A DNA stretch of 40,266 nucleotides. It comes from Erythrobacteraceae bacterium. Lineage in GTDB: Bacteria; Pseudomonadota; Alphaproteobacteria; Sphingomonadales; Sphingomonadaceae. Positions 183 through 9,358 of this stretch are shown piece by piece. The position numbers and the translations under genes are program-made. Within the stretch, counting starts at the first letter, position 1. Each line of letters starts with the position of its first letter. The stretch spans positions 1 through 40,266 of the forward strand of contig JAIYEK010000176.1 in the NCBI GenBank assembly GCA_027487015.1, read 5' to 3'. The notes beneath the pieces are model-generated. The model worked only from the letters and a program-made list of their open reading frames with translations. It was not told the origin of the DNA and searched no databases.

Positions 183-1787
183 ATGACCTTCAGAACCTTG
201 GCCTTTGCCGGACTGGCCCTAGTCGCTGGTCTTGCCGCGTTCCTGTTCTTAGCGGCCGAGCCGCAGGGCGATTCTCTCGCAGTACCTCAAACGGGAGCCG
301 AAGCACCGCTTGCCGCAAAGGGCGCCGCGGCTTTTGCAGGCGGCGGGTTTGGCGGGATATCGCAGACCGCGCTCGAGACCAATGCGGTGCCCTTCAAGCT
401 GGTTGCCGCGGCGCTGGTGCTCGACGAACAGGCCCACGATCCGGCCGCGCGCGCCGACGGAGCAACGTTGCAGCGGTTGCTCCGCCGGTTCGGCTTCCTC
501 TTCCCCGAGCGCGTCGACGGCCTGCCCGAGGGCATGCGCCCCAATCTTCGCGACAAGCCGCTGGGGATGACCCACGGCTTCATCGCCCCGGTCGGCGGAT
601 CGCGGGTCGAGGTCGCCAATCTCGGCTGTGCGGCGTGCCATGCCGGGGTCGCCTATGCGCCCGACGGCGCGCCGTTGCCGGGGCGCGCGGTGCTGGGGAT
701 GCCCAACACCTCGCTCGATCTGGAGAGCTACACGCAAGCCGTCTTCACCGCGCTGCGCCGCCATGCGGGGAGCCCCGAGCTGCTGGCGACCGCCGACACA
801 CTGTTCCCCGACATGGGCTGGCAGGAGCGCGCCTCGCTGCGCTGGATCGTGCTCCCGCTGGCAAAGAGCCGGCTGGAGAGCCTCGCCGGTTCGCCGCGCG
901 CCTTGCCATTTCCCAACGGGTTGCCGGGCGCGACCAATGGCGTCGCGGCATTGAAGCTCCAGACAGGAACGCCGCTCATGGGCGGCGGGGCGGAGGAGCG
1001 CGGGTTCGTCTCGATCCCCGACCTCGCCTTGCGCCATCGCCGCAGCCGCCTGCTAGCGGACGGCGCCTATGCCGCCCCCTCCGGCAAACCCGACATGCGC
1101 GAGCTTGCGGCGATCACCAGCTTCTTCACCGTCCCCAGCATGGGCGTGAATCCCGAAGAAGCGCAGCGCCATATCCCCGAGGCCGAGGCGATATTCGTGT
1201 GGCTCGCGGACTACCGCCCGCAAGGTTTCCCCGGCCCGCTCGATAGGGCAGCGGCAGAGCGCGGCGCGGCGCTTTATGCCAGTGCTTGTGCATCGTGCCA
1301 CGGCAGCTTCGACTGGAACAGCGGCGCGCCCCGGCTCGCGTCCTATCCCGACTGGATCGGCGATGTCGGCACCGATCGCTTGCGGGCGCGGGTGATGGAT
1401 GAGAGGCTGGCAAAGGCGATCCGCGGCTCGGCCTATGCTGCCGCGATCAAGGTGCGCCCCGGAGAGGGCTATGCTGCACCGCCACTCGCCGGGCTGTGGG
1501 CCTCAGCGCCCTACCTCCACAATGGTTCGGTGCCGAGCCTCGCCGCGCTGCTCGACCCGCGCCTGCGCCCGCGGCGATTCATGGTCGGCGGACACGCACT
1601 CGATTGGGAGAGCATGGGGCTGCGGCTGACGGCGGAGGGGCGCTATCCGGCGGGCTACCGAGCGTTCGCGGCGCCGCAATGGGTCGACACGGCACAGCCG
1701 GGCCTCGGCAATGGCGGGCATACCTTTGGGAGCGAGCTGACGGCGCAGGAGCGGCAGGCGCTGATCGAGTTCCTGAAGCTGATCTAG
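183..1787 (+). CDS. Membrane-anchored di-heme c-type cytochrome, RoxA / di-heme peroxidase-like
   Basis: This 534-residue protein starts with a hydrophobic segment (about residues 5-25) that is either an export signal or an anchor, so it should act in the periplasm. It has two haem-c attachment motifs, C149-A-A-C-H153 and C369-A-S-C-H373. Near the C-terminus is the stretch APYLHNGSVPSL, typical of di-heme peroxidase-like proteins and the rubber oxygenase RoxA group. Two CxxCH motifs about 220 residues apart in a protein of over 500 residues fit RoxA-type better than the shorter bacterial CcpA/MauG proteins. The ATG at 183 was chosen because the open frame further upstream runs back through the tRNA. 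The substrate is unknown; peroxidase, oxygenase or plain electron-transfer roles are all possible. Its stop codon lies in a CTAG shared with the convergent nitroreductase gene. Confidence 0.8.
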   Translation: MTFRTLAFAGLALVAGLAAFLFLAAEPQGDSLAVPQTGAEAPLAAKGAAAFAGGGFGGISQTALETNAVPFKLVAAALVLDEQAHDPAARADGATLQRLLRRFGFLFPERVDGLPEGMRPNLRDKPLGMTHGFIAPVGGSRVEVANLGCAACHAGVAYAPDGAPLPGRAVLGMPNTSLDLESYTQAVFTALRRHAGSPELLATADTLFPDMGWQERASLRWIVLPLAKSRLESLAGSPRALPFPNGLPGATNGVAALKLQTGTPLMGGGAEERGFVSIPDLALRHRRSRLLADGAYAAPSGKPDMRELAAITSFFTVPSMGVNPEEAQRHIPEAEAIFVWLADYRPQGFPGPLDRAAAERGAALYASACASCHGSFDWNSGAPRLASYPDWIGDVGTDRLRARVMDERLAKAIRGSAYAAAIKVRPGEGYAAPPLAGLWASAPYLHNGSVPSLAALLDPRLRPRRFMVGGHALDWESMGLRLTAEGRYPAGYRAFAAPQWVDTAQPGLGNGGHTFGSELTAQERQALIEFLKLI

Positions 1788-2761
1788 TCGAGGAGCACCT
1801 CGGACAGCGGCAGACGCGCGCGGGCGAAGGGCGCACCGTCGCGGCGGCCGACGCGCAATGCGCTCACCAACCGGCGGTCCGGCCCGATGTCGTGGGCTGC
1901 GCACAGCGAGGCCGCCGCCGCAGGATCATCGGCCAGTGCGGCGAGAACATTTCCGCCGAGCCCGCCCGCATCAATCTCGAGCCACAGCCGGTGAAAGGCG
2001 CGGCCGCTGTCGAACGGGTCCTCGCTGGCCGTACGGTAGAACAGCACCACGGCGGCAGCATTGGCAAAGCCACTGGCCTCGGCGAGCAAAGCGGGCGCAA
2101 GGCCGAGCGCCGAGAGCGGAGCGAACAGCGGCCCGAGCACTGCGCCCGCGGCGGCCGCCTCGATCCCTGAAAGCTGCATCGCCGCAGCATTGAGCCCGTC
2201 GCGGGCCCAATCGCGGTGGCGCGGGCTCAAGCGCATCCAGTGGCGCAGCTCGGCGCGGAAGGCTCGTCCACGCATGATGCCGTAGCTGGCGCGGTCGTAG
2301 AGCGCGGCGGCCGCGGCAATGGCGGCGGGGTCGGAGAGGATCACGCGGTCCTCGCCCGCGAAGGCCTGCGCCGCTGCGCGGTCCTCACCGCTCGGCGGCA
2401 GGAACGCCCCGCGCCACGAGGCCCGCGTTTCCAGCACCGCCAGCAGCGGATCAGGCGTAGCACCCGGCGCAAAGGTGAGGCGCGCTATCGGGCGCAAGCC
2501 ACTCGGATCACCACCCGAAAGCCGCTCGACCCGCGTCATCAGCCCCACGCCCGAGGCGGCAATCACCGCGCCCTCGGCCGCTGCGCCAAGGCTGATCGCG
2601 GCGTCGTTGCCGCGCGGATCGCCCACGCTCAGCCGCCGCGCGGTGTCCTCCAGCAGCACCAGCGTCTCGCCCTCGATCCGCCAACGCGCGGGCTGGACGT
2701 TGTGGACGCTGGGCGAGGCCATCGCCGCCGCAACGATCTCGCGTAGCACTTCGGCGGTCAT
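1784..2761 (-). CDS. Nitroreductase-family FMN oxidoreductase (last gene of the E1-like operon)
   Basis: 325 residues. The N-terminal ASPSVHNVQPARWR is the FMN/phosphate-binding signature of the nitroreductase fold. The C-terminal part contains DPFDSGRAFHRLWL, typical of longer, Acg- or Rv1355c-like nitroreductases rather than small NfsB-type enzymes. Expected chemistry is flavin-dependent oxidation or reduction; the substrate is unknown. Its ATG overlaps the stop of the upstream acetyltransferase-like gene by 4 bases, so the two are probably translationally coupled. Nitroreductases partner E1-like enzymes in azole-forming peptide pathways, and they are fused to an E1-like domain in mycobacterial Rv1355c (MoeY). 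A role in the same pathway as the E1 gene upstream is therefore inferred, not shown. Confidence 0.82.
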   Translation of the reverse strand: MTAEVLREIVAAAMASPSVHNVQPARWRIEGETLVLLEDTARRLSVGDPRGNDAAISLGAAAEGAVIAASGVGLMTRVERLSGGDPSGLRPIARLTFAPGATPDPLLAVLETRASWRGAFLPPSGEDRAAAQAFAGEDRVILSDPAAIAAAAALYDRASYGIMRGRAFRAELRHWMRLSPRHRDWARDGLNAAAMQLSGIEAAAAGAVLGPLFAPLSALGLAPALLAEASGFANAAAVVLFYRTASEDPFDSGRAFHRLWLEIDAGGLGGNVLAALADDPAAAASLCAAHDIGPDRRLVSALRVGRRDGAPFARARLPLSEVLLD

Positions 2762-3849
2762 GCGATGTCCTTCCGGAACAGGTGCAGCTTGTGGAGCCAC
2801 CGGCCGTTCATCTTCTCGACCTGCCTGAGGCTCGCCGGGTTCTCGTCGGCGATCCATGTCCCGCCGACGGTCTCGTAGCCCGCCGCGCGCACCCGGCCGA
2901 GCGTCTCGGCGAGCATCGCGCTCATGATCCCCTGCCCGTGCGCCGCGCGGGCGACCGAGTAGAAGATGATCACCGCACGGCGTCGATTCATCCGGTAGCG
3001 CAGGAAATGCCACGGGGTCGCCAGCCCGATCCGTGAGCGGGTCGCCTTGAGGAAGCCGTTGAGGTCGGGGATCGCGATGATCACCCCCACCGGCACCCCG
3101 TCCTGCTTGACCACCGAGGACAGGCGCGGGTCGAGAATCGTGCTGAGTTCCCCCGCCTGGAACTGGAATTCCTCCTCCGTCAGCGGCACGAACATCGGAT
3201 TGTCGTGAAACCCGTCGTTGAGCAGCAGCCGGGCCTCCTCCATCCGCTCGGGGAAGGTCGATTTGCGGATCGGGGCAAAGGTGAAATGTGCCGGGTCGAG
3301 CGCCGCAGGCGGCGGGGCGGCGCGGGCGAGATCGATCTCGAAGGTGGTCATGGGGAAGAAGGGCGCGAAGCCGTTCGCTGCGAGCATCACCGGCAGCCAC
3401 GGCGGGCCGACGACCATGTCGGTATAAGCGGTCTCCTCGAACCCGCCGGTCATCACCCCGCATTGCTGCATGGCGGTGAGATTGAAGTTGCCGACCAGCT
3501 CGGCCATGCCCTCGTCGCGCGCGAAGCTTTCAGCGGCACCGAGCAGCCTGCCCGCCGCTTCGGGATTGTCGGCACAGTCGAAGAAGCCGAACTGGCAGCG
3601 GCTCCAGCCCCACCGTTCGTTCGATTGGCGGTGCATGTGGGCGATGATCCGCCCGACCGGCTTTGCTCCATCATGCACCGTCCAGAAACGACAGGGATTG
3701 CCCGCTGTCCACAAGGGGTTCTTCGCCGGATCGAGCATCCGCATGATGTCGCCCCGCATCGGCGAGACATAGCCGATCTCCGGCGGGTAGGCGTGGAACG
3801 GCGCTTCGAAGAAGGCCTGTGCATCGCCTTCGCGCAAGGTGAGGGTCAT
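2758..3849 (-). CDS. GNAT-fold acyltransferase-like protein
   Basis: 363 residues, about twice a single GNAT domain. The C-terminal part has the acetyl-CoA-binding type motif ARAAHGQGIMSAML followed by a strand, and then WIADENPASLRQVEKMNG, a familiar end of GNAT domains. The N-terminal half (residues 1-200) is aromatic-rich and may be a degenerate second GNAT unit. It lies between the membrane-protein gene and the nitroreductase gene, overlapping each by 4 bases (ATGA). N-acylation of an amine or amino-acid-derived intermediate would fit the cluster, but the acceptor cannot be predicted. Some homologues carry misleading labels such as dATP pyrophosphohydrolase; no such motif is visible here. 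Confidence 0.72.
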   Translation of the reverse strand: MTLTLREGDAQAFFEAPFHAYPPEIGYVSPMRGDIMRMLDPAKNPLWTAGNPCRFWTVHDGAKPVGRIIAHMHRQSNERWGWSRCQFGFFDCADNPEAAGRLLGAAESFARDEGMAELVGNFNLTAMQQCGVMTGGFEETAYTDMVVGPPWLPVMLAANGFAPFFPMTTFEIDLARAAPPPAALDPAHFTFAPIRKSTFPERMEEARLLLNDGFHDNPMFVPLTEEEFQFQAGELSTILDPRLSSVVKQDGVPVGVIIAIPDLNGFLKATRSRIGLATPWHFLRYRMNRRRAVIIFYSVARAAHGQGIMSAMLAETLGRVRAAGYETVGGTWIADENPASLRQVEKMNGRWLHKLHLFRKDIA

Positions 3850-4985
3850 GGGGCACGCTCCAGCAGCCGGGCGACGATGGTGAGCTCCTGCGTCAGCCGC
3901 GCCTCGTCCAGCGCGCCGCCCGAGATCGCGAGGAAGCGCGGGGCAGGTCCCGGGGCAAGGCGCAGCAGGTGACTGGCGCCATAGCGGGCGAGGAGCTCGC
4001 GCGCGGCGCCGGTCAGGTTCTCGCTCGCAGGATCGCGCGCCGCGGTCAGTACCGGCCGAGCGGCGAGCGCGGCGAGCACGTCGCCGGGCAGATCGGCCAG
4101 CGCCTCGGCGGTCACCGGCACGGCATTGGCGAGCAGGGGGTGGGCGGCGAGGATTGCGGCTTCATCAGGCGCTGCGCGGGCGATGGGGAGCAGCAGCCCC
4201 TCGCCGCGTGCGGGGCCGCTTGCGAACCGCTCGGCGAGCATCACCAGCCCAGCGGCTGCGCTGGCAGCAGCGGCCAGCGACCAGACCAGCGCGGGGGGCA
4301 CGGCCGCAAGCTGCGCTGCGAACGCAGTCAGCCCACCCGCGCCCGCGACCAGCGCCAGATCGCCCAGAAGTCGCAAGGGCCGGCTTGCGGTTCCGGCAAG
4401 GCGCGAACAGGCGAGCACGAAGACCAGCGCGGCAAAGGGCCCGCCGCGGAACGGCAGGTCGGGGAAGGCCCAGGCAAAATCGGTCGCGAGCAGCGGCAAC
4501 GCCAGCGCGAAGGCCAGCGCAAGCATGTCCGCCGCGCGCCACTCGGCCAGCGACACCGAGGCGCGCTGGGCGAGGAGGTGGAGCACTATCGCCACCACCA
4601 CCGCCGCCTGAAACAGCGCGAGCGCGATGAGTGCTGGCCCCGTCCACACCAGCCCGAAAGTCACCGCCAGCAGTGAGAAAGCCCCCGCCCCGCCCAGCGC
4701 CAGCAGCTTGAGCGGGCGTGGGGCGTGGCGGCGCACCAGCTCCTCGGCAAGGCGCAGCGTGACCAGTGGCAGCCACGCGGCCACGACCATGGTCAAAGCG
4801 ACCACCACCGGGGAAGGCAGCGCCATTCCCGCTAGCCGCAGCGCGAGCAGCAGCGCGATCAGCGTGACAAGGCGCGCCAGATGTCCCGCGACCCCGCCCC
4901 CGCGCGCCGCCGACGCAACGCCCATTCGCGCCACCAGCGCGGCGAGCAGCCCGATCGCTGTCAGGAGAGCGCCGATCGCCGTCAT
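3846..4985 (-). CDS. Polytopic membrane protein with soluble C-terminal domain, unknown function
   Basis: 379 residues. Roughly the first 260 are almost continuous hydrophobic segments (about eight helices by eye) separated by short Arg-rich loops. The last 120 or so residues are soluble, Ala/Leu-rich and end in a helix (RLTQELTIVARLLERAP). No transporter signature was recognised. The ATG overlaps the TGA of the E1-like gene (bases 4982-4985), and its own stop overlaps the next ATG, so it is an integral part of the operon. It could anchor or export the product of the neighbouring enzymes; that is inference from context. The start is supported by the ATGA coupling and by hydrophobic sequence immediately after it. 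Confidence 0.75.
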   Translation of the reverse strand: MTAIGALLTAIGLLAALVARMGVASAARGGGVAGHLARLVTLIALLLALRLAGMALPSPVVVALTMVVAAWLPLVTLRLAEELVRRHAPRPLKLLALGGAGAFSLLAVTFGLVWTGPALIALALFQAAVVVAIVLHLLAQRASVSLAEWRAADMLALAFALALPLLATDFAWAFPDLPFRGGPFAALVFVLACSRLAGTASRPLRLLGDLALVAGAGGLTAFAAQLAAVPPALVWSLAAAASAAAGLVMLAERFASGPARGEGLLLPIARAAPDEAAILAAHPLLANAVPVTAEALADLPGDVLAALAARPVLTAARDPASENLTGAARELLARYGASHLLRLAPGPAPRFLAISGGALDEARLTQELTIVARLLERAP

Positions 4986-5854
4986 GCCAAGAGCTTCGCC
5001 ATAAACCGCCGCACCAGCGCGCGCTTGGCGAAGGCGAGCGGCGCCGCCAGCGGGCGCTCGACCCGCATGGCATGGGCGTTGAAGAAATAGCCGCGATAAT
5101 CCGTGCCGCCGGGCCGGGCGAGGATCACCCGGATCGCTTCCTCGGCCATCAGCGTGCCGGCCATTGTCACCATGGTCGAGAAGCTGAAGCGCGAACGCTT
5201 GCCCGCCGCAACCTCGCCCGCGACGTCGAGATCGACATATTTGTGGCTGGAGGAGTGGACGAGGACATACTCGATCTCCTTCATCAGGCATTCGACGCCC
5301 ATCTCTTTGGTGATGGACTGCCACGGCACGCCGATGGTGGGATAGCCGAGCCGCTCCTCGATCCGCGGATCGCCCGGGCGCACTACCGTGACCGAGGGCA
5401 GCGGCGAGGCATAGGCATCGATCAGCGTCTTCCCGTGTACGCGGCACTGGCGGTAATATTCGGCGCCCGCCGCAGAATCGTCGGTGCCGTTGATCGCGAC
5501 ATCGGCGCGCGGGAGGATCTCGGGCAAGCGCTCGGTCCATTCGCGCCCCAGCACCTCGAGCTGGACTTGCGGATTGATCTCGAGCGCCAGCCGCGCGGCC
5601 GCCTCGGCCTTCAACTGGCCGATGGTGTCGGCGCGGGCGAAGAGCTGGCGGTTGAGGTTCGACACCTCGAACACGTCAAGATCGGCGATGATGAAGCGGC
5701 CGACGCCCGCACGAAGCAGCGCCATGAAGGCCGCGCCCCCCATGCCGCCGACGCCGGGGATGAACACGCAGGCTTCGCGCAGACGCTCCTGCTCTGCCTC
5801 GGTCACGAAACCACGGTTGCGGGTGGTCATCTCGGCATAGTCGAAGGCGGTCAT
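4982..5854 (-). CDS. E1-like / ThiF-family adenylating enzyme
   Basis: 290 residues with a complete E1/ThiF/MoeB core. The nucleotide-binding loop is GVGGMGG (34-40). It is followed by D58, D60 and SNLNRQ (65-70), which contains the ATP-contacting Arg69, then Lys82, and NGTDDS with the Mg-binding aspartate (D125/D126). Adenylating capacity therefore looks intact. The paired CxxC zinc knuckles of MoeB/ThiF are missing; only isolated cysteines remain (C29, one near 136, one near 188), the last being a possible thioester site. No ubiquitin-like ThiS/MoaD gene lies nearby, so a housekeeping thiamin or molybdopterin role is unlikely. The substrate is probably the carboxylate of a small molecule or peptide (inference). 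The ATG at 5854 overlaps the upstream stop by ATGA, which supports this start. Confidence 0.85.
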   Translation of the reverse strand: MTAFDYAEMTTRNRGFVTEAEQERLREACVFIPGVGGMGGAAFMALLRAGVGRFIIADLDVFEVSNLNRQLFARADTIGQLKAEAAARLALEINPQVQLEVLGREWTERLPEILPRADVAINGTDDSAAGAEYYRQCRVHGKTLIDAYASPLPSVTVVRPGDPRIEERLGYPTIGVPWQSITKEMGVECLMKEIEYVLVHSSSHKYVDLDVAGEVAAGKRSRFSFSTMVTMAGTLMAEEAIRVILARPGGTDYRGYFFNAHAMRVERPLAAPLAFAKRALVRRFMAKLLA

Positions 5855-6792
5855 GGGAGGGGCCTCAGGCGGTTGTAGGGACGGGACGCATCGAGCCATT
5901 GGATCAGCGGGGCGAGCACCGCGCCCGCCAGCACCATCGCCGCCTGCACCGCCAGCTGCGGCAGGGCGCTGCGCGGCACGCTGCGCGCGAGGAAGCGCTG
6001 CCCGGCGGCAAGGTCGATCTTGCCGATCTGCAGCACATCATCGCCGCGGGCGTAATCGAGTTCGCGCTCGCAAAAGGCGTTGTAATCCTCGCGCCGGTGC
6101 TTGGCGGCGATGGCGAAGGTCTTCTTCAGATTGTCCGACCCGCCGGTATAGGCATTGGTGATGACCTGCCGGTCGGCGTCGTAGCCCGCATCCTCCCCCA
6201 CCCCGAAGGCTTGGCGGTGGCGGCGCATGATCTGGTGCGCGAGGTGGCGATGGGTGAAGCTCTGCGGCGTTGCGCCTTGGGCCGGGAAGACATCGCTGAA
6301 TGTCTCGGCCACCATGCCGACCACCGCGGGCACTTGGGTGACGCTGCTCACCCACAGGGGTCTCAGGCCCTGCCGCAGGAACAGCGCGAAGCAGGTGAGG
6401 CCGTAGAGGATCCATGAAAGCCCGCCGCTGCGCTCCTCGGGATCGACCATGACCAGGCCTAGGTGAAGCACGTTCTCCTCTGCCCCGCCCCGGATCACGC
6501 CGAGCTGCGGCATGGCGTTGAAAGCGACCGGGCGGCCATCCACGCTGCGGGTGACGAGCGTGATGACGCTGCGATCCCACGCCGCGCCGTCTTCGCCGAA
6601 CAGACCGTAGTCGAGGCTCTGCCCGCCAAGGCAGGCGCGCACCACGGCATCGCAGTCCTGCTTCAGCTGCGCCAGCGCGCCGGGCGCAAGGCTGGTGCCC
6701 GGCCGCTCGACGATCCACACGCGGTATTCACGCGAGGGGCGGAACGAGAGCGACAGGGTTTCTCCAGCAAGGGCACCCAGAAACTGAAGCAA
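5851..6792 (-). CDS. GNAT-like protein with C-terminal membrane helix, first gene of the E1-like operon
   Basis: 313 residues from a TTG start. A central stretch (VLHLGLVMVDPEERSGGLSW) has the strand-turn-helix pattern of the GNAT acetyl-CoA site, though the glycine-rich loop is degenerate. The last 40 residues contain a hydrophobic helix (LAVQAAMVLAGAVLAPLI) that may tether it to the membrane. Start choice: the TTG at 6792 has a strong GGGGAGG ribosome-binding site 8 bases upstream. An in-frame GTG at 6837 would add 15 residues but has no visible site. Its stop overlaps the E1 start by 4 bases. The function is unknown; acyl transfer is possible. It is transcribed divergently from the histidine kinase at 7113. 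Confidence 0.65.
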   Translation of the reverse strand: MLQFLGALAGETLSLSFRPSREYRVWIVERPGTSLAPGALAQLKQDCDAVVRACLGGQSLDYGLFGEDGAAWDRSVITLVTRSVDGRPVAFNAMPQLGVIRGGAEENVLHLGLVMVDPEERSGGLSWILYGLTCFALFLRQGLRPLWVSSVTQVPAVVGMVAETFSDVFPAQGATPQSFTHRHLAHQIMRRHRQAFGVGEDAGYDADRQVITNAYTGGSDNLKKTFAIAAKHRREDYNAFCERELDYARGDDVLQIGKIDLAAGQRFLARSVPRSALPQLAVQAAMVLAGAVLAPLIQWLDASRPYNRLRPLP

Positions 6793-6859
6793 AGGTTCCC
6801 CCTCCCCATGCCGGATTGCCGACCTTACGCGCCGCACCGGCAGCGCTACCGGCGCGCGC

Positions 6860-6916: not shown

Positions 6917-7074
6917 TGGGGGGCAGGCTGGTCGCAAGCGCGGATCCGACCTTGTCGGGGACAAGCAGCACCGGTGCCGGGTGAAGCGCCACGCCCGAAC
7001 CCCGGGTATCAGGCGGGCCGCACTTCAAAAATGATGCGCATTGTGCTTGATGCCTGTGCGGGGATGGGCGGGTG

Positions 7075-7090
7075 GCCCGGATAACCGGGC
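7075..7090 (+). promoter_or_regulatory. Inverted repeat in the leader of the histidine kinase gene
   Basis: GCCCGG-ATAA-CCGGGC is a perfect 6-base inverted repeat ending 22 bases before the kinase ATG. It could be an operator or a small mRNA hairpin near the ribosome-binding site. No T-tract follows, so it is not a terminator. Confidence 0.35.
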
Positions 7091-7112
7091 AACGGGGCTT
7101 GAAAACGACAGC

Positions 7113-8738
7113 ATGCTGAAGCGGATTCTCGATTACCATTCGGGTCGCGGGATCGCATTGTGCAGGCTTGCGCTGGCGGTGGTGTTCCTGCTCGTCCTCT
7201 ATGCCGATCCCGATCAGCCGGTGCGCAATCCCTGGGAGGGCTATGTGTTTCTGGGCGGCTACGCACTGCTCTCGCTCGCGCTGCTCGCAGCGATCTGGAA
7301 CAACTGGTGGCGCGATGTGACGCTGCGCCTGCCTGCGCTCCTGCTGGATTGCGCGGTGTTCCTGATCGCGATCTACCTCACCGAGAGCAGCTCTACCGAT
7401 TTCACCAGCCCGTTCCTTTCTTCCTTCATCTTCATCATACTCACCGCGACGGTGCGCTGGGGTTGGTCGGGGATGGCGATCGTCGCGGGAGCGCTCAGCT
7501 TGAGCTATCTTGCGGCGGGCGTGTGGCTCGAATGGGCCGGCTTTGATGTCGAGCTCTACCGCTTCGGCCGCCGCGGCACCTACATGTTCCTGCTATCGCT
7601 GATCCTCGTATGGTTCGGCCTCCAGCGCCGGGTGCGCGCCGTGGCGCGGCTCGACTTTGCGGGCGAAAGCACGGGCGCGCTGCCCGCCGCCGAAATAGCG
7701 GCTTACGCGATGCAGGCGACCGGCTCGCCTTGCCTCTACATGGGTTGGTGGAGCAACGAGGATCCGCATGTCCTGCTGTGCAAGGTCGATGGCGGCGATC
7801 CGGTCATCCAGAACCTGCCGCCCGAGGCGCTGGCCGCACCGACCGACACGCCCTTCGCGCTGTTCGACCGCCCCTGGCGCCGCATGCTGGTAGCAAGTGC
7901 TGACGGGCGGATCACGACACGACGCGCAGCCTTCGACGCGCCGCTTGCGGAGCATTACGGCATTGCCGAGGGGCTGGTGATCCCGATCCACAGTTCCTCG
8001 GGCAAGGGGATGCTGATCCTCAGCTGCAATCCCGATATCAGCATCGACCACCTCGCCATGGCTCCGGCGCTTGCACAAGAAATCTCCGCCGCGCTCGACC
8101 GGCAGTTGCTCTCGCACATTTCGCGCGAGGCGGCGGTGGCGCACCTGCGCGCCACACTCGCCCGCGACCTGCACGACAGCGTGGCGCAGACCCTCGCCGG
8201 CGTGCGCTTCCGGATCGAGGCGCTGCGCGCACAGGTTCGCGCAGGGAACGACGCCGATGCCGAATTCGACGAGATGAAAGCCAGCCTCAGCAGCGAGCAC
8301 CGCAACCTGCGCCAGATGATCGAGCGCCTGCGCCGCACCGATCTCGAGCCTTCGACCGTCCGGCTCGCGGCCCAGATGCAGGGCGTCGCCGGCGAGCTCG
8401 AGCGCAACTGGCGCGCCGAGGTGCACGTGTCGACCACGCCCGAAGACCTCGCGGTTCCGGTCGGCCTTGCTTACGAAATCCAGCAGATCGCCCGCGAGGC
8501 GGTGGCGAACGGGGTGCGGCACGGCGAGGCGAGGCGCTTCGACATCGCGGTATCGCGCAGCGCATGGGGGATCGATCTCGACATCCGCGACGACGGGAGG
8601 GGGTTTACGGGCACCCCTCCGCCCCACCCGCGCACGCTCGATGAAAGAGCCCGCGCCAATGGCGGCCATCTGGCGGTCTGCGCGAGCAGCGCAGGGGCGC
8701 ATCTGGTGATCAACCTGCCCGATCGGAGCGACAAATGA
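7113..8738 (+). CDS. NarX/DesK-type membrane sensor histidine kinase
   Basis: 541 residues. About six hydrophobic helices occupy residues 15-185. A GAF-like cytoplasmic region follows (about 200-335). Next is a HisKA_3 dimerisation/phosphoacceptor domain with His354 in ARDLHDSVAQTLAG, and then an HATPase domain whose G1 box is DIRDDGRGF (490-498). The kinase has no obvious periplasmic loop, so it probably senses a membrane or cytoplasmic signal. The ATG at 7113 was chosen because hydrophobic sequence starts directly after it and the upstream frame is intergenic. Its TGA overlaps the response-regulator ATG (8735-8738), so the pair is coupled. Being divergent from the E1-like operon, it may regulate it, but this is untested. 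Confidence 0.9.
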   Translation: MLKRILDYHSGRGIALCRLALAVVFLLVLYADPDQPVRNPWEGYVFLGGYALLSLALLAAIWNNWWRDVTLRLPALLLDCAVFLIAIYLTESSSTDFTSPFLSSFIFIILTATVRWGWSGMAIVAGALSLSYLAAGVWLEWAGFDVELYRFGRRGTYMFLLSLILVWFGLQRRVRAVARLDFAGESTGALPAAEIAAYAMQATGSPCLYMGWWSNEDPHVLLCKVDGGDPVIQNLPPEALAAPTDTPFALFDRPWRRMLVASADGRITTRRAAFDAPLAEHYGIAEGLVIPIHSSSGKGMLILSCNPDISIDHLAMAPALAQEISAALDRQLLSHISREAAVAHLRATLARDLHDSVAQTLAGVRFRIEALRAQVRAGNDADAEFDEMKASLSSEHRNLRQMIERLRRTDLEPSTVRLAAQMQGVAGELERNWRAEVHVSTTPEDLAVPVGLAYEIQQIAREAVANGVRHGEARRFDIAVSRSAWGIDLDIRDDGRGFTGTPPPHPRTLDERARANGGHLAVCASSAGAHLVINLPDRSDK

Positions 8739-9358
8739 TCAATGTCCTAGTCGCCGACGATCACCCCTTCCTCAGGGCCGGGCTCGAGGCGGTGCTGCGC
8801 ACGGCCGGCATGGTGGTGGTGGCATCGGTGGGCGACGGCGATGCCGCGCTCGCCGCGATTCCCGCGACCGATCCCGACGTGGTCGTGCTCGATGTCGCGA
8901 TGCCCGCGCGTGACGGGGTGGCGACGCTTGCGGCGATGCGAGAGAGCGGCGACCAGCGGCCGGTGGTGATCCTGACCGCCAGCATCGATGACGAGCAGCT
9001 CCTCGCAGCGATCCATCACGGCGCCAGCGGCATCGTGCTCAAGGAGGACGCCGAGGATTTCCTGATCGATTGCATCCGCAGCGCAAGCGCGGGGCACAAG
9101 ACGATCGACCCGCGGCTCGCCTCGCGGATCACCGAGCTCACATCCGGCGAGAAGCCCGCGCGCCGGATCGACAAGCTCGGGCGGCGCGAGAAGGAGATCG
9201 TCGAGCGGGTCGCACGCGGCCTGCGCAACCGCCAGATCGGCGAAGAGCTGTCAATGAGCGAGGGTTCGATCAAGGTCTATCTCCACACGATCTTCGAGAA
9301 GCTCGAGGTGAGGAGCCGGACCGAGCTTGCCATCCTCTATCACGACGAGACGACCTGA
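8735..9358 (+). CDS. NarL/FixJ-type response regulator
   Basis: 207 residues: an N-terminal receiver domain with acidic pair D8/D9, phosphoacceptor D53 in VVLDVAMP, a Thr in VVILTAS and a Lys in GIVLKED. A LuxR-type DNA-binding domain follows (about 143-205), with LGRREKEIVERVARGLRNRQIGEEL cut here into two parts: LGRREKEIVERVARG and LRNRQIGEEL, then SEGSIKVYLHTIFEKL. It is the cognate partner of the kinase that it overlaps by ATGA. Targets are unknown; the divergent leftward operon and the kinase's own promoter are the nearest candidates. Confidence 0.93.
   Translation: MINVLVADDHPFLRAGLEAVLRTAGMVVVASVGDGDAALAAIPATDPDVVVLDVAMPARDGVATLAAMRESGDQRPVVILTASIDDEQLLAAIHHGASGIVLKEDAEDFLIDCIRSASAGHKTIDPRLASRITELTSGEKPARRIDKLGRREKEIVERVARGLRNRQIGEELSMSEGSIKVYLHTIFEKLEVRSRTELAILYHDETT

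Follow-up and report, generated by a model that had tools for sequence, protein, structure and literature searches.

What do five genes make together when they are chained by four-base overlaps and encode two acyltransferase-like proteins, an E1-like adenylating enzyme, a polytopic membrane protein and a nitroreductase-like flavin enzyme? The question is posed by a 40,266-nucleotide stretch of an Erythrobacteraceae genome (assembly GCA_027487015.1, contig JAIYEK010000176.1; hereafter the window), which, read directly, holds five minus-strand open reading frames between positions 1784 and 6792, called here genes 1 to 5 in the order of transcription. An earlier note made from the letters of this DNA had described ATGA overlaps and two GNAT-like proteins, and both descriptions are borne out, with ATGA at all four junctions (5851-5854, 4982-4985, 3846-3849 and 2758-2761), GNAT folds in the predicted structures of genes 1 and 4, and an Acetyltransf_1 match for gene 4. 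We propose, with about as much confidence as doubt, that the operon is a cassette for an N-acylated, amino-acid-derived lipid, made by the logic of acyl-oxazolone biosynthesis with acyltransferases of another kind.

From the families of the proteins we infer the reactions, their substrates, location and order, and likewise the amino acid, the chain length, the formation of a ring and the product. Gene 4 would transfer an acyl chain from acyl-CoA or acyl-acyl carrier protein (acyl-ACP) onto an amine; gene 2 would adenylate the carboxylate of the N-acyl compound, driving a ring closure that yields an oxazolone (azlactone) or another product with similar activation; and gene 5, with flavin and O2, would introduce a double bond beside the ring. 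Together, genes 2, 4 and 5 would form one functional trio, the counterpart of TyzB, TyzA and TyzC of the tyrazolone system, while genes 1 and 3 would be a membrane module whose task is to supply the lipid, acylate it further or move it. A convergent gene, for either a RoxA-like dihaem protein or an Aas-type acyl-ACP synthetase/acyltransferase, would oxidise the lipid or feed acyl chains into the pathway. The earlier note had suggested carboxylate adenylation, flavin oxidation and acyl transfer leading to a small membrane-associated product; this is still the best reading and now has a foundation in the Tyz and Trz precedents, although the product itself remains conjectural.

Conservation of the five-gene cassette

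Loci were collected with the E1 as bait from 61 genomes, the window's own included, and from a single scan of GTDB contigs; a second collection, baited with gene 1, drew on samples of the order, the class and the phylum, in which 7 of 396, 3 of 385 and 8 of 398 genomes matched; each count includes the window's own genome, and every match in these samples belongs to the same class as the window. The resulting table holds 33 loci, four of which are duplicates by gene 1 sequence. Among the 29 non-duplicate loci, all 22 that carry an uncut close gene 2 (the window included) have the order 1-2-3-4-5 on one strand, and an association kept in this order in 22 of 22 loci exceeds chance. E1, GNAT and flavin-dependent oxidase (FDO) genes, and with them the three putative activities, are co-encoded in every one of these loci. 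Full cassettes are spread across Sphingomonadales, Rhizobium, Brevundimonas and Hyphomonadaceae, with Porphyrobacter, Rhizobium, Qipengyuania, Sphingopyxis, Brevundimonas and Hyphomonadaceae represented in the scan of GTDB contigs. Gene 1 was also matched in 10 plasmid records, all from genera of Rhizobiaceae, and the five plasmid loci that were examined among them each carry the five genes in order.

The earlier note had staked its reading on the genes staying together in relatives. This is what the neighborhood comparison shows wherever a close gene 2 is present, with the refinement that genes 1 and 3 occur without genes 2, 4 and 5 in five loci (L096, L097, L106, L107 and L108). These pair-only loci account for five of the seven remaining non-duplicate loci, the other two being one cut by a contig end inside gene 2 (L036) and one with a remnant of gene 1 (L109). 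Two of the 22 ordered loci carry irregular genes: in L058 the contig start truncates gene 1, and gene 2 is spread over two frames; in L046, gene 5 is split over two frames. Decay or assembly error could account for the broken or multi-frame copies, which lie at L109:11906-12370 (gene 1), L058:648-1509 (gene 2), and L046:7616-8492 and L158:12167-13145 (both gene 5).

The E1 and flavin enzymes beside known acyl-oxazolone systems

Rv1355c is TrzS, a tryptazolone synthetase in which a ThiF cyclase is fused to a flavin oxidase, and in the tyrazolone system TyzA N-acylates, TyzB (ThiF) cyclizes with ATP and TyzC (FDO) desaturates with O2 (PMC12856293, PMC10404671). The earlier note had cited Rv1355c as a fused E1/nitroreductase, MoeY; the fusion stands and the identity is now TrzS. 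Its choice of azole-forming peptide pathways as precedent gives way to acyl-oxazolone lipids (TrzS, TyzA/B/C), which are nearer. It had also known of no characterised pathway with this gene set, which holds for the exact set in the open-licence literature (most subscription journals lie outside it), where only the Tyz, Trz and stieleriacine work is relevant to this gene combination, but the comparable systems TrzS and TyzA/B/C have been characterised. The cassette shares with TyzA/TyzB/TyzC (Rv2336/Rv2338c/Rv2337c) the encoding of an acyltransferase, a ThiF-type cyclase and a flavin-dependent oxidase by separate genes, to which it adds a membrane protein and an accessory cytochrome or Aas-type enzyme. 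The acyl-oxazolone synthetases OxzA/OxzB of Pseudoalteromonas rubra and TrzA/TrzS (Rv1356c/Rv1355c) resemble the cassette in the use of an E1-like cyclase and a nitroreductase-fold oxidase on an N-acyl amino acid (PMC10404671, PMC12856293), although the two enzymes are fused there and are split and differently partnered in the window.

Gene 2 matches the ThiF family (PF00899) at 122 bits, over the cut-off, and its nucleotide site is intact, with GVGGMG, D58, D60, N66, R69, Q70, K82, D125 and D126 invariant in 10 aligned rows. It was compared with the E1s of 28 further loci (L037-L044 and L059-L078), in 20 of which an FDO gene or domain was recognised and in eight of which it was not. The profile of window-type E1s scored 236.7 over 271 columns against all 28 distant E1s, 229.5 over 270 columns against the 20 with a recognised FDO in the locus, 202.8 over 232 columns against the other eight, and 148.8 over 193 columns against MoeB-type E1s, while FDO-linked and MoeB-type E1s scored 140.3 over 132 columns with each other. 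On these profile scores gene 2 would belong to the oxazolone-cyclase lineage of E1s, a kinship to TyzB and to the Trz and Oxz enzymes that is indirect, as it runs through the FDO-linked E1s of a comparison outside which the Tyz, Trz and Oxz sequences lay. A tree of the E1s has long branches and omits five rows without the glycine motif (L067, L065, L076 and the further short frames of L037 and L039), and its three one-sided groups alone cannot tell which two are closest.

Some of the comparison loci have peculiarities of their own. In L063:8701-9924 and L075:3514-4731 the E1 gene overlaps a divergent FDO-like gene in which APSADNHH replaces the PS-x-x-N-x-Q flavin motif, and the stretches fetched for these two loci contain no FeeM-type acyltransferase. 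The Thiobacillus-type loci L059-L062, L066 and L067 have an E1 of the same lineage and no recognised FDO; a FeeM-type gene lies about 2-2.5 kb from the E1 (measured in L059, L060 and L067), and in L067 the E1 comes after genes for DNA polymerase I, a tetratricopeptide-repeat protein and an alpha/beta hydrolase.

An E1 fold might also point to a protein- or tRNA-dependent system, in which the E1 activates a ubiquitin-like carrier or a peptide, or gene 4 is an aminoacyl-tRNA-dependent transferase of the MprF or FemX type. Cys189 is kept in 8 of the 10 E1 rows, and lysylphosphatidylglycerol-synthase domains and aminoacyl-tRNA-dependent peptide synthases do appear lower in the Foldseek ranking of gene 4; but tandem acyl/acetyl-CoA GNATs score higher there (template-modeling (TM) score 0.62 versus about 0.4), no cysteine is invariant in the 10 rows, the window E1 has no CxxC, its profile is nearest to the FDO-linked lineage, and the four 4-base overlaps leave no room for a carrier gene. 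We consider such a system extremely improbable, and with no invariant cysteine and no carrier gene in the operon a ubiquitin-like role for the E1 seems unlikely, but most rows do keep Cys189. A ribosomally synthesized azole peptide was rejected on the grounds that the FDO-linked lineage is where the E1 falls and that the overlapping genes leave no room for a precursor within the operon; the overlaps exclude a precursor gene only there, and no dedicated search for YcaO, a carrier or a precursor was made over the 40 kb.

Gene 5 scores 22.8 bits against the Pfam nitroreductase family, just under the cut-off of 23.5, and its best NCBIfam family is Acg (NF047509, the Acg/Rv3131 flavin mononucleotide oxidoreductases) at 138.2 bits, below the cut-off of 199. 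The PSVHN-x-QP motif is intact and is invariant in the alignment.

A pairing of this kind could also yield an open-chain N-acyl dehydro-amino acid lipid like the stieleriacines or thalassotalic acids, in which ThiF activates the carboxylate just briefly or to allow coupling, and a stable ring never forms. NAS/NasY, ThiF and nitroreductase genes accompany N-acyl dehydrotyrosines for which an oxazolone derivative was not observed (PMC12479983). These clusters (stieleriacines, kyonggic and thalassotalic acids) are operon-like sets of an acyltransferase, a ThiF protein and a nitroreductase, as is the cassette, but they use another kind of N-acyl amino acid synthase and have no observed ring, and the excerpted text mentions no such membrane gene (PMC12479983). 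The activated carboxylate could be consumed by a second acyltransferase, gene 1. The same pair of enzymes does form rings in TyzBC and TrzS, however, and tryptazolones are labile during extraction (PMC12856293, PMC10404671); an open-chain product seems to us rather unlikely.

Two acyltransferase-like proteins and a separable membrane pair

The cassette differs from FeeM-type systems in its acyltransferases. A FeeM- or exosortase-type acyltransferase is encoded somewhere within the stretch fetched in 23 of the 28 comparison loci (five of the 23 supplied the profiles), the exceptions being L063, L064, L068, L069 and L075. TyzA has a predicted fold like that of FeeM and acyl-homoserine lactone synthases, whereas the cassette has a ceramide-synthase-like tandem GNAT and a second GNAT outside any family, and the data are consistent with gene 4 or gene 1 taking the place of the FeeM/exosortase-type enzyme.

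Gene 4 matches Pfam Acetyltransf_1 at 34 bits, over the cut-off, and its predicted structure (pLDDT, the predicted local distance difference test, of 78) is a tandem GNAT fold for which Foldseek gave MAB_4324 at a TM-score of 0.62, with the lysylphosphatidylglycerol-synthase and peptide-synthase matches at about 0.4 further down. By BLAST it is 27% identical to E. coli K-12 YghO over residues 5-264 (270 columns, E 8e-31), a homology over about 260 residues that includes the LND-x-(F/W)-x-x-N-x-x-FVP-(L/F)-T region; it differs from the ceramide synthase bCerS/YghO/CC_1154 in its C-terminal part and in the company of E1 and FDO genes. The yghO gene of E. coli BL21 and CC_1154 are both given as the presumptive gene for the acyl-CoA N-acyltransferase in dihydroceramide synthesis (PMC9386255), and CC_1154 is needed for dihydroceramide in Caulobacter, where it shares a region with the LptF2 and LptG2 genes (PMC11324152). 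Relatives of the window carry a second YghO-type gene, of which the one tested is 34% identical to YghO over 393 columns; gene 4 is 27% identical to the LptFG-linked copy of a relative. In both genomes tested (L118:8292-13630 and L119:4731-9508) this second gene adjoins a fatty acid desaturase gene and two LptF/LptG-type genes. The region resembles the Caulobacter ceramide region, and the second gene is probably a ceramide synthase. Since relatives hold this second, fuller YghO-type gene, gene 4 is most readily understood as a distant relative that has specialised. In E. coli K-12 (L079:9044-11341), the 5' end of the annotated yghO runs into the end of an IS5 element.

This ancestry raises the alternative of a sphingolipid-like or diacyl amino lipid modification, in which gene 4 retains the role of a ceramide synthase toward a long-chain amine, a second chain is attached by gene 1, and the E1 and FDO tailor the head group. 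The relationship of gene 4 to YghO/CC_1154 speaks for it, as does the separate YghO-type gene, which in both tested relatives has LptF/LptG-type neighbors, as in the CC_1154 region of Caulobacter (PMC11324152). Against it, the cassette is found in Rhizobium and Ensifer too, and neither a serine palmitoyltransferase nor a CerR gene was seen next to the cassettes, although no dedicated search for them was made. An E1 is not known to have a role in sphingolipids, and taken together we regard this alternative as quite unlikely.

Gene 1 has no Pfam match and a weak, meaningless NCBIfam match. Its predicted structure (pLDDT 77.8) found NatD as the best Foldseek match (E 4.7e-6), with other GNATs behind it, at TM-scores of only about 0.3-0.4, and this single model lends moderate support to a GNAT fold. 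The protein has a conserved R-x-x-G-x-S loop and a hydrophobic C-terminal helix. An equivalence to FeeM or TyzA was rejected, as gene 1 gave no FeeM, exosort_acyl or autoinducer-synthase match and Foldseek returned NatD and other GNATs. Gene 3 has about seven to nine hydrophobic segments, a C-terminal soluble part of about 110 residues and a conserved E-x-x-x-RRHA stretch, and no family exceeded its cut-off in the Pfam and NCBIfam searches; PDB profile searches of genes 1 and 3 gave no meaningful match.

Genes 2, 4 and 5 are absent from all five pair-only loci. In searches of the whole genomes the gene 4 profile matched none of the five pair-only genomes and both control genomes; the gene 5 profile, which matched the controls at E 1e-153 and 1e-145, found nothing comparable in the five; and the gene 2 profile matched over part of its first half only, as MoeB-type enzymes do. 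Because these genomes have no close genes 2, 4 and 5, those three may be read as a trio equivalent to TyzB, TyzA and TyzC, and genes 1 and 3 as a separable membrane module. In a tree of gene 1, four of the five pair-only rows fall among full cassettes and the fifth (L097) sits on a very long branch, with the forks left open; this placement favors loss of genes 2, 4 and 5 over gain as the probable origin of the pair-only state.

In three pair-only loci of one genus (L106, L107 and L108, from genomes of 7-9 Mb) genes 1 and 3 come after PspA- and YiaAB-type envelope-stress genes, each of these families having been tested in one locus and assigned in the others by similarity or reading. Genes 1 and 3 could on this account be an envelope-stress or sensory module that detects a signal molecule made by the trio, an idea that the annotation of YiaA/YiaB near the Ensifer PDNC004 and Shinella cassettes (after the cassettes in these records) and the soluble C-terminal part of gene 3 would also suit. 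Gene 1, however, is GNAT-fold and better conserved than gene 3 (43-75% versus 22-61% identity to the window copy, in one 13-row set that includes pair-only loci), and no sensor domain was recognised in gene 3, so that we think a sensory role very unlikely.

Several findings weigh against the acyl-oxazolone reading. In a profile comparison that used all nine Acg-type rows and left out L063 and L075, gene 5 scored 235.6 against Acg-type enzymes and only 120.3 against the FDOs of E1-linked comparison loci, the latter two groups scoring 247.7 with each other. A tree made without L063, L075 and six of the nine Acg-type rows, in which the trimming motif is lacking, set gene 5 apart from the FDOs of E1-linked loci with support of 100/100 on long branches. 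On this profile comparison and tree gene 5 was rejected as an FDO-A, which is what TyzC is, and placed nearer the Acg branch; FDO-B enzymes are, according to the authors, not involved in oxazolone biosynthesis (PMC10404671). No FeeM/exosortase-type acyltransferase was found in any of 38 cassette, pair and plasmid loci (33 plus 5, the four duplicates included). The match of gene 4 to YghO ends at residue 264 of 363 and is not full-length, and by eye the second of its GNAT domains has a degenerate-looking CoA loop. The E1 lineage need not always work with an FDO, as none was recognised in eight of the 28 comparison loci, and the retention of Cys189 in most rows means that this residue may have a role. 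Since the pair of genes 1 and 3 also occurs where the trio is missing, some function of the operon is independent of an E1, and three of the five pair-only genomes contain, elsewhere, weak partial matches to gene 5 (E 5e-11 to 2e-18), two of them at Acg-family genes. As neither an FDO-A nor a FeeM-type acyltransferase was found, the cassette is likened to the oxazolone systems and not filed among them.

Convergent lipid genes and the surroundings of the operon

A linked sixth gene, which the earlier note had missed, converges on the operon and overlaps gene 5 by four bases (Table 1). It encodes a cytochrome with an N-terminal hydrophobic segment and two CXXCH haem sites, CAACH and CASCH, and it matches the RoxA-like cytochrome domain PF21419 at 69.5 bits (cut-off 26.7), a domain that likens it to the rubber dioxygenases RoxA, RoxB and RoxC and to dihaem cytochrome c peroxidases. 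It lies far under the cut-offs of the RoxA/B/C families themselves, scoring 55-76 bits where 900-1000 are required, and it reaches 129.9 of the 150 required for NF040606; the protein is possibly a lipid-oxidising enzyme. The gene adjoins 19 of the 22 cassettes, though on the opposite side in L056 and in two pieces in L058, and is absent beside L031, L047 and L092. Whole-genome searches at E 1e-10 found no RoxA-like match in G022 and G373, which carry the cassette and are two of the genomes of those three loci, nor in any of the five genus members tested that have no close E1. Because two cassette-bearing genomes give no match anywhere, the RoxA-like gene was rejected as an essential part and is regarded as linked but dispensable.

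On plasmids the partner is usually another one. The cassette of Rhizobium sp. WL3 retains the convergent cytochrome, while in Ensifer sp. PDNC004, E. adhaerens CTYH.Ch1 and Shinella sp. WSC3-e it is replaced by a convergent fusion gene of about 1132 residues, annotated as acyl-[ACP]--phospholipid O-acyltransferase in two of the three records and without annotation in the third. The arrangement recurs in Rhizobium 32-5/1, where gene 5 and the Aas-type gene each span several frames, so that an Aas-type acyl-ACP synthetase/acyltransferase fusion adjoins four of the five plasmid cassettes examined; its MFS/PlsC/AMP-binding make-up was tested with Pfam in one record.

Table 1. Positions in the window of the operon genes and adjoining features
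Feature	Position	Strand	Description
Gene 1	5851..6792	-	GNAT-fold acyltransferase-like protein (P0001); TTG start at 6792
Gene 2	4982..5854	-	E1/ThiF-like adenylating enzyme (P0002), of a lineage fused to or beside flavin-dependent oxidases
Gene 3	3846..4985	-	Polytopic membrane protein (P0003) with C-terminal soluble part
Gene 4	2758..3849	-	Tandem-GNAT N-acyltransferase-like protein (P0004), distantly related to bacterial ceramide synthase YghO/CC_1154
Gene 5	1784..2761	-	Nitroreductase-superfamily flavin-dependent oxidase/desaturase-like protein (P0005), Acg-branch affinity
RoxA-like dihaem c-type cytochrome gene	183..1787	+	Convergent accessory gene; start codon inferred
Purine-rich Shine-Dalgarno-like stretch	6796..6807	-	Upstream of the gene 1 TTG start

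The stretch that precedes the TTG start of gene 1 reads GGGGAGGGGGAA, and a scan for promoters and terminators found none. A membrane histidine kinase and a LuxR-type response regulator are encoded divergently from the operon at 7041-9358 on the plus strand. They were rejected as a dedicated regulator, as the pair is not kept beside other cassettes and only weak partial matches occur, in L035 and L046.

A bolder version of the acyl-oxazolone reading, which we put forward as unlikely, would make the product an undescribed class of alphaproteobacterial membrane lipid, in which an enzyme derived from ceramide synthase N-acylates an amino acid or amino lipid and the E1 converts it to an azlactone. 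The strained ring would serve as an activated acyl donor for the gene 1 GNAT at gene 3, and a RoxA-like haem enzyme in the periplasm would complete the oxidation. On this view genes 1 and 3 would be an acylation machine in their own right to which azlactone chemistry was added.

As judged by sequence, the cassette differs from the Tyz and Trz sets in its acyltransferases, its membrane protein and the branch of its flavin enzyme, and keeps the E1 lineage. The physiological role of acyl-oxazolones is described by a group that found them as a major unresolved question (PMC12856293). To that question the cassette offers an alphaproteobacterial form with another acyltransferase and oxidase, a retained E1 lineage, a dedicated membrane protein and recurring lipid-gene neighbors. 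If the proposal is true, E1-driven lipid cyclization would be a module that can be combined with different acylation machines, one of them related to ceramide synthase.

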